Virus record (IMG/VR): IMGVR_UViG_3300021425_000249
Span: 1 to 20,020 of that record
Direction: 5' to 3' (one strand)
Source of the DNA: a virus
DNA: 20,020 bases
A program made the position numbers and the translations under genes. The notes beneath the pieces were generated by a model. It worked only from the letters and a program-made list of their open reading frames with translations, searched no databases and was not told the origin of the DNA. Numbering within the stretch: position 1 is the first letter of the stretch; each line of letters starts with the position of its first letter. This document shows, one piece after another, positions 17,568 through 19,133 of this stretch.

Positions 17568-17829
17568 GAACTGTATTGCTTTGTGATAATATACAATACA
17601 TTTCTGTATTATTAGATTAAATATAAATAACCTGATTTTATTGATTCTCAATTGCAATAAGTTATTGAGAATAATACCCTGTAGATACTTGTGAGTAACC
17701 GTCAAGTAACCTCTGAGTCATTGTAACCTTTGCCTGCAGCCTATCACACTCGGAGTATTTTGTCAAGGGGGACGCACAGAAATTCTTACAGGATACGGAT
17801 TTTTTATAAATATTGCTTATGAGACCCGC

Positions 17830-17858
17830 TTGACATTCAAGAGGGTGGTCGGTATAAT
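17830..17858 (+). promoter_or_regulatory. Perfect consensus sigma70 promoter TTGACA-17-TATAAT
   Basis: TTGACA (17830-17835), a 17-base spacer, TATAAT (17853-17858). The only fully consensus promoter in the window, pointing at the gene at 17892 (33 bases after the -10). Confidence 0.93.
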
Positions 17859-17866
17859 AACAAAGT

Positions 17867-18127
17867 ACGAGATTCACCCGCACGAGATCCCATGTACCAG
17901 GACTACGAGATTGCATACGAGTTATCATACGAGTATAACAACGAGTCTTATTCATATAATCTCGACGAGATGTGCGAGTACGTGATGCGAGATACACATA
18001 ATCAATATAACATACAAGATACATACGAAATTGATGACGAGTATGTACGAGATTCATGTGATTATAACGAGCTTGCATACAGGCACTATGCATAATCATA
18101 TACGAGATACATGTATACAACGAGATG
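17867..18127 (+). repeat. Cluster of ACGAGAT motifs
   Basis: Seven exact ACGAGAT heptamers (17867, 17882, 17905, 17965, 18047, 18102, 18120) plus several ACGAGT/ACGAGC in about 260 bases. They occur both outside and inside the small gene and in more than one reading frame, so codon use does not explain them. Confidence 0.75.
17892..18095 (+). CDS. Tyr/Asp/Glu-rich small protein (67 aa)
   Basis: MYQDYEIAYELSYEYNNESY then YNLDEMCEYVMRDTHNQYNI and CDYNELAYRHYA. It contains an unusual amount of Tyr, Asp, Glu and Asn, partly because the DNA is full of ACGAG motifs (Tyr-Glu codons). It has the strongest promoter of the window but a poor ribosome site. The LAYRHYA ending resembles short cyanophage proteins I remember. 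It may be a real acidic protein, or the frame may be a by-product of the repeated DNA motif. Confidence 0.62.
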   Translation: MYQDYEIAYELSYEYNNESYSYNLDEMCEYVMRDTHNQYNIQDTYEIDDEYVRDSCDYNELAYRHYA

Positions 18128-18137
18128 TACATGTATC
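18106..18137. repeat. 10-bp inverted repeat over a -35 region
   Basis: GATACATGTA (18106-18115) and TACATGTATC (18128-18137) are perfectly complementary across 12 bases. The right arm covers the -35-like TGTACA of the next promoter. Operator-like. Confidence 0.65.
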
Positions 18138-18154
18138 ATCATATATGGTATAAT
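18126..18154 (+). promoter_or_regulatory. Promoter TGTACA-17-TATAAT
   Basis: TGTACA (18126-18131), 17-base spacer, TGG-TATAAT (18149-18154). ATG 18179 lies 24 bases downstream. Confidence 0.7.
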
Positions 18155-18178: not shown

Positions 18179-18337
18179 ATGTACACACAAGCACGCAAAC
18201 GTATTGTAAGTGTAACACTAGATATCGAGTGTTATGATGACTTTCCACTGGAAGATTTAGAGTGGAAAGATCTGTTAGGTCTAGAAGGAGACGAGAAAGT
18301 AGACATTAGCATCAGAGAATTGGCAGATATCTTTTAA
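18179..18337 (+). CDS. Small acidic hypothetical protein (52 aa)
   Basis: ATG 18179 is chosen because it lies after the -10; the open frame from 18125 would start before the promoter. MYTQARKRIVSVTLDIECYD, DFPLEDLEWKDLLGLEGDEK, VDISIRELADIF: strand, helix, strand with acidic surface, probably a compact beta-alpha-beta domain. The pattern is familiar in cyanophages; no function known. A large nested hairpin follows six bases after the stop. Confidence 0.77.
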   Translation: MYTQARKRIVSVTLDIECYDDFPLEDLEWKDLLGLEGDEKVDISIRELADIF

Positions 18338-18342
18338 ACCAC

Positions 18343-18427
18343 CAGTTCGTAGATTGGCACACACGTATTAATATTTGGTTCTCAATAAGCATTCGTTATT
18401 GAGAACAGTGTGCCAATCTACGAACTG
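18343..18427. repeat. Nested inverted repeat: 20-bp and 11-bp perfect stems
   Basis: The outer arms 18343-18362 (CAGTTCGTAGATTGGCACAC) and 18408-18427 are perfectly complementary. Inside, GTTCTCAATAA (18378-18388) pairs with TTATTGAGAAC (18396-18406) around a seven-base loop. A 15-base single-sided bulge (18363-18377) separates the stems. No T run follows. It could be a structured RNA, a DNA cruciform or a recombination site; the length and lack of mismatches exclude chance. Confidence 0.92.
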
Positions 18428-18444
18428 TACACTATTTCCCCACA

Positions 18445-18466
18445 GGGGCAAGATTTCGTGTATTGT
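18445..18466 (+). promoter_or_regulatory. CGTGTATTGT box, first member
   Basis: GGGGCAAGATTTCGTGTATTGT upstream of ATG 18490. The box CGTGTATTGT recurs at 18754, 19124 and 19958. TATTGT could serve as a weak -10. This member lacks the 56-bp repeat found before two of the others, and has the large inverted repeat instead. Confidence 0.5.
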
Positions 18467-18699: not shown

Positions 18700-18763
18700 A
18701 CAATATGTGCCAATAGTTTTAGTGGCACAGTAAATGAGCACTGTGCCCAAAATCGTGTATTGT
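18686..18763 (+). repeat. Intergenic module, copy 1 (stem-loop plus CGTGTATTGT box)
   Basis: Bases 18686-18741 are identical to 19056-19111 (56 bp); after four or five differing bases, CCCAAAATCGTGTATTGT is again identical. It contains the stem GTGCCA/TGGCAC around ATAGTTTTAG, then TGAGCA 17 bases before TATTGT, a possible -35/-10 pair. Confidence 0.88.
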
Positions 18764-19069: not shown

Positions 19070-19133
19070 ACAATATGTGCCAATAGTTTTAGTGGCACAG
19101 TAAATGAGCACGAACCCCAAAATCGTGTATTGT
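19056..19133 (+). repeat. Intergenic module, copy 2
   Basis: Second copy of the module at 18686, 370 bp downstream, with the same stem-loop and box. Here the box continues TATTGTATACAAG, which includes the palindrome TTGTATACAA. Confidence 0.88.

Follow-up and report, generated by a model that had tools for sequence, protein, structure and literature searches.

Genes and promoter-like sites at the locus

The window analysed here is a 20,020-nucleotide stretch of the IMG/VR record IMGVR_UViG_3300021425_000249. The window is a cyanophage fragment: nearly all of the DNA relatives found for it in the phage collection are Synechococcus phages, with Synechococcus phage S-SKS1 as the nearest named one. 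Towards its right end lie two small genes of 67 and 52 aa (Table 1); no known family could be assigned to the first, and the perfect sigma-70 promoter-like site ahead of them is also present in most relatives. The hairpin described below starts 5 nt past the stop codon (18335-18337) of the 52-aa gene and is followed by a TCGTGTATTGT box, a putative promoter with further copies at 18753, 19123 and 19957 (the last as CCGTGTATTGT) and in S-SKS1.

The surroundings are rich in other repeats. ACGAGAT 7-mers cluster at 17867-18126, partly within the 67-aa gene (7 of the 8 copies in the window), and at the equivalent place in S-SKS1 (9 of the 14 same-strand copies in 200 kb); the cluster is possibly an iteron or a binding site. 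In many relatives an origin-like array lies upstream of the 52-aa gene, at a distance of about 0.5-0.6 kb (L006, 2629-2786; S-SKS1 record, about 151300-151470; equivalent places in others). Three DnaA-box-like 9-mers (TGTGGAWAA) with a spacing of about 21 bp come first, and AT-rich 11/22-bp tandem repeats come after them; the DnaA-box-like cluster of S-SKS1 is the only one in 200 kb. The cumulative GC skew of S-SKS1 falls monotonically through the site and is uninformative as to an origin. The array is absent from the window, where a GIY-YIG homing endonuclease gene (Pfam PF01541; 16752-17537, minus strand) lies near the corresponding position. At the far end of the window, an ORF that runs off the window start contains three tandem repeats of 114 bp (51-389; 94% matches).

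Table 1. Features at and around the hairpin (window coordinates).
Feature	Position	Strand	Remarks
Sigma-70 promoter-like site, TTGACA-N17-TATAAT	17830-17858	+	Perfect, 12/12 match; ahead of both small genes
67-aa small gene	17892-18095	+	Conserved in S-SKS1; overlaps ACGAGAT cluster
Second promoter-like site, TGTACA-N17-TATAAT, TG before -10	18126-18154	+	Consensus match only
52-aa conserved small gene	18179-18337	+	PHROG 12516 (unknown function); stop codon precedes hairpin
Outer stem, left arm	18343-18362	+	20 bp, perfect with right arm
Internal loop, 5' side	18363-18377	+	AU-rich, 15 nt, unpaired
Inner hairpin, GTTCTCAATAA-GCATTCG-TTATTGAGAAC	18378-18406	+	Interchangeable module, also occurs alone elsewhere
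Outer stem, right arm	18408-18427	+	Also GTGCCA-N10 upstream element of following promoter-like module
Small hairpin, CCCC-ACA-GGGG	18438-18448	+	Between big hairpin and TCGTGTATTGT box
Promoter-like box, TCGTGTATTGT	18456-18466	+	Pattern repeat; putative promoter
GTGCCA-N10-TGGCAC dyad	18707-18728	+	Next module
GTGCCA-N10-TGGCAC dyad	19077-19098	+	Third module

Anatomy of the hairpin

An initial annotation had described nested perfect stems of 20 and 11 bp at 18343-18427, and both the arm coordinates and the folding agree with it to the base. The inner stem pairs 18378-18388 with 18396-18406 around a 7-nt loop (18389-18395), and the spacer between the outer arms measures 45 nt. What had been called a one-sided 15-base bulge has its 15 nt on the 5' side but is faced by a single unpaired A (18407), and is thus a 15 x 1 internal loop. 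The interval itself is free of genes, as had been noted, although it directly follows the conserved 52-aa gene. The folded RNA has a minimum free energy of -46 kcal/mol, and its folding z-score is -9.6 for 18330-18440 and -11.8 for 18338-18428, with none of 200 shuffled sequences folding as well. No other perfect stem of the window is as long as the outer one (the runner-up has 15 bp); by simple arithmetic, chance alone would give about 2e-6 perfect stems of 20 bp with a loop of at most 90 nt in a 20-kb sequence.

The GTGCCA of the right arm lies 58 nt from the TCGTGTATTGT box, and the spacing is identical at the two GTGCCA-N10-TGGCAC dyads downstream, so the right arm doubles as an upstream element for the promoter-like module that comes next. 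The left arm is, as a sequence, an inverted copy of this element placed at the stop codon. Inner-type hairpins also occur by themselves: a solitary one lies at 17645-17671 (plus strand), and the dispersed hairpin ATTCTCAATA..TATTGAGAAT, which is the inner-stem module, stands alone in intergenic positions in many of these phages (L002, L007, L120, L124 and others).

The hairpin occupies a conserved slot

Three protein-based scans returned about 200 loci with 72 distinct slots downstream of the 52-aa gene, distantly related named phages being set aside. The slot has a folding z-score below -3 in 47 of the 72, and the following 110 nt in none. A near-perfect stem of 20-27 bp (35 bp in one case) is found in 35 of them, which we call strong slots; here the spacer is 25-54 nt, the start of the stem falls at -3 to +6 nt relative to the stop codon's end, and the helix is never shorter than 20 bp. 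In the same place S-SKS1 carries a stem of 26 bp whose sequence is quite different; no other perfect stem exceeds 15 bp in the 200 kb examined of the 208-kb genome. Across about 1.25 Mb of (redundant) cyanophage loci, 21 of the 22 distinct stems of at least 16 bp lie in this slot. The outer hairpin has one copy per genome where this could be tested, and only the inner module is dispersed. Because of the divergence of the arms, a direct BLAST search with the hairpin found nothing in named phages beyond short, chance-like matches, and synteny was needed to find the hairpins of relatives.

Conservation of the slot is not complete. The more distant phage S-T4 carries the hairpin in imperfect form and with another inner hairpin. 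The right-arm element is all that is present in S-CAM7 and S-SCSM1, and two loci (L025 and L138) are without the left arm. Homologues of the 52-aa gene without the hairpin were found in S-SRM01, DSL-LC03, Sf-CH8, Bellamy, S-SM2 and SynMITS9220M01, and three loci (L178, L180 and L099) keep the gene with a weak hairpin or none in the slot. The hairpin is therefore not essential.

The two arms change together

Loss of the stems in relatives, or a lack of compensation, had been named beforehand as the sequence-based part of the outcome that would speak against the element; the comparison was made and the hairpin survived it. Among 38 distinct arm pairs, 88% of cells are paired, compared with 38-42% when one arm is slid by -1 or +1, and 12 of the 20 base pairs show changes on both sides. 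The covariation score reaches 0.267, while shuffles give 0.140 (0 of 500 as high) and the slid controls at most 0.091. Over the central ten bases, arms pair better with their own partners than with swapped ones, only 1 of 100000 permutations being as good. On a tree of the upstream genes there are 19 changes of the left arm, 20 of the right arm and 22 of the pair, which indicates that the arms mostly change together. Near-identical genomes on this tree (L016 and L022, for example) can differ by replacement of the whole cassette, so part of the covariation reflects cassette exchange and not stepwise compensation.

In close relatives the arm centre passes from GT/AC to TC/GA to CC/GG, both arms together. 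Such multi-base changes are what would be seen if the hairpin were a mutational relic, that is, two inverted copies of a promoter-upstream dyad whose perfect match is maintained by template switching as the DNA replicates, with no selection on RNA. Template switching is able to create and maintain perfect hairpins (PMC8794818), and a second quasi-palindrome in the window is perfect in one relative. This repeat (19460-19478/19532-19550) runs from the 3' part of one small gene to the ribosome-binding region of the next, and is imperfect in the window and a perfect 20-bp stem in L187 (2302-2394); it is a possible case of translational coupling or a possible template-switch product.

The mismatches in imperfect stems argue the other way. 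There are 34 distinct G-U and 8 A-C mismatches, where 14.3 and 7.8 are expected from arm composition (p = 0.034). This excess points, with moderate strength, to an RNA of the plus strand and would be unexpected under template switching. The restriction to a single slot across relatives with very different arms, the re-acquisition of the element as a whole cassette and the single orientation of type-I spacers throughout likewise speak against a relic. Template switching probably contributes to the arm changes, but leaves the single slot and the G-U bias unexplained, and as a full account it seems rather unlikely.

The same data bear on a role in DNA, in which the arms would act as a pair of operators or form a cruciform, to the benefit of the next promoter or of the origin-like region nearby. 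The GTGCCA-N10 form of the right arm with its fixed spacing to three promoter-like boxes would fit such a role, as would the DnaA-box-like and tandem repeats about 0.5 kb upstream of the 52-aa gene in relatives. Against this, the central N10 co-varies, a complementarity for which two protein sites would have no need, and the G-U bias is strand-specific. Extrusion of a cruciform is unfavourable with a 45-nt spacer. We regard a DNA-level element as improbable, and the cruciform put forward in the initial annotation finds no support. Nor does its suggestion of a site for resolution or recombination, which is at odds with the uninverted spacers and the single copy per genome; no recombinase was found among the neighbouring genes tested.

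A proposed transcript-end hairpin without a U-tract

The eight nucleotides 3' of the stem contain no more than three T in the window hairpin and in 34 related ones, so the absence of a T run extends to all 35 strong slots. A canonical intrinsic terminator resembles the element in being a stable hairpin that ends a transcription unit immediately after a stop codon, and some relatives (e.g. L114, L118, L120) and S-T4 have a second GC-rich hairpin with a T-rich tail downstream. With no U-tract directly after the stem, and with a stem of 20-27 bp that is far longer than usual, a canonical terminator is very improbable; the first description had already judged the structure far stronger than a terminator needs.

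We favour an RNA 3'-end or insulator hairpin that closes off an early cyanophage message of one or two small genes, and give this reading roughly even chances. Transcription from one or both sigma-70 promoter-like sites would run through the 52-aa gene, and the ~90 nt past the stop codon would fold into the nested stems as soon as the ribosome has left it. The hairpin, probably without releasing RNA polymerase as a canonical terminator does, would fix the 3' end of the transcript, shield it from 3'-5' exonucleases (PNPase/RNase II) and keep the early unit distinct from the promoter-like module that follows, for which the right arm serves as upstream element. Cyanobacteria lack Rho, and canonical terminators serve a minority of their transcription units (PMC13289151). 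In Synechococcus elongatus PCC 7942, 22% of units have defined 3' ends but no U-tract (PMC13289151). Rho-less hosts and U-less defined ends favour the reading; of those U-less ends 46% are highly structured and most are not (PMC13289151), which counts against it. A transcript-end protector was one of the four candidates first proposed, and is the one that best fits the position at the stop codon, the missing U-tract, the compensated stem and the excess of G-U over A-C on the transcript strand; protection as such would be its presumed function. A free-standing non-coding RNA, another of the four, fits less well, as no promoter of its own was seen, and the element would form the 3' terminus of the mRNA of the small gene.

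The closest rival is processing by RNase III, in which the host enzyme would cut the 20-27-bp duplex in a read-through transcript and split the small-gene mRNA from the downstream message. RNase III prefers about two turns of duplex, a length that the helices of all 35 strong slots reach, and the plus-strand G-U bias is also as expected for an RNA substrate. Cyanobacteria have 1-3 RNase III genes, and two of the enzymes, from Synechococcus PCC 7002, cut many E. coli substrates (PMC10989914). Stems that are short or imperfect in many relatives do not agree well with this role, and read-through would be minor if the TCGTGTATTGT box is a promoter. We consider processing a tentative possibility; it could also act jointly with a 3'-end role.

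Relation to known elements

At the gathering threshold no Rfam family matched, and a lax search returned only microRNA hairpin look-alikes far below it; a tRNA/tmRNA search found none. A search of 84,980 genomes with the half-hairpin pattern yielded 12 matches in unrelated phyla, about the chance expectation, and a host origin was rejected. No description of this hairpin was found in the literature searched on cyanophage hairpins, non-coding RNAs and inverted repeats.

The 3'-end-stabilizing hairpins of E. coli (REP-type elements and processed 3' ends) offer a close likeness: like them, the element is a stable hairpin without a U-tract directly 3' of an ORF, on the transcript strand, and would block 3'-5' exonucleases. 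It differs from them in being phage-encoded and present once per genome where testable, with arms that diversify by compensation and cassette exchange; the dispersal typical of a REP element is lacking, the outer hairpin occurring once in S-SKS1. Phage RNase III sites of the T7 early region type are likewise long intergenic duplexes between early genes, whereas the cyanophage hairpin is sequence-plastic and a single site. CfrI of cyanophage S-PM2 is also an RNA element of a T4-like cyanophage near a homing endonuclease gene. It is an antisense RNA of ~225 nt, directed against psbA and an endonuclease gene (PMC2984593), whereas the present hairpin is sense, lies 3' of a small gene and is unrelated.

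A U-less hairpin at a transcript end is of a known kind; a phage-encoded, sequence-plastic cassette confined to a single slot appears to be new. More speculatively, in cyanobacteria, which lack Rho, a swappable, dedicated phage RNA cassette may end or process an early, origin-linked transcript with no need of a U-tract and be kept by exchange of whole hairpins, an idea that we put forward with reserve. The hairpin bears on how cyanobacteria end their transcripts without Rho. Its dozens of natural variants with compensated arms make this conserved U-less cyanophage element a system in which RNase III processing or hairpin-defined 3' ends could be tested in infected cells, and a clean case in which to separate selection from template switching behind perfect stems.
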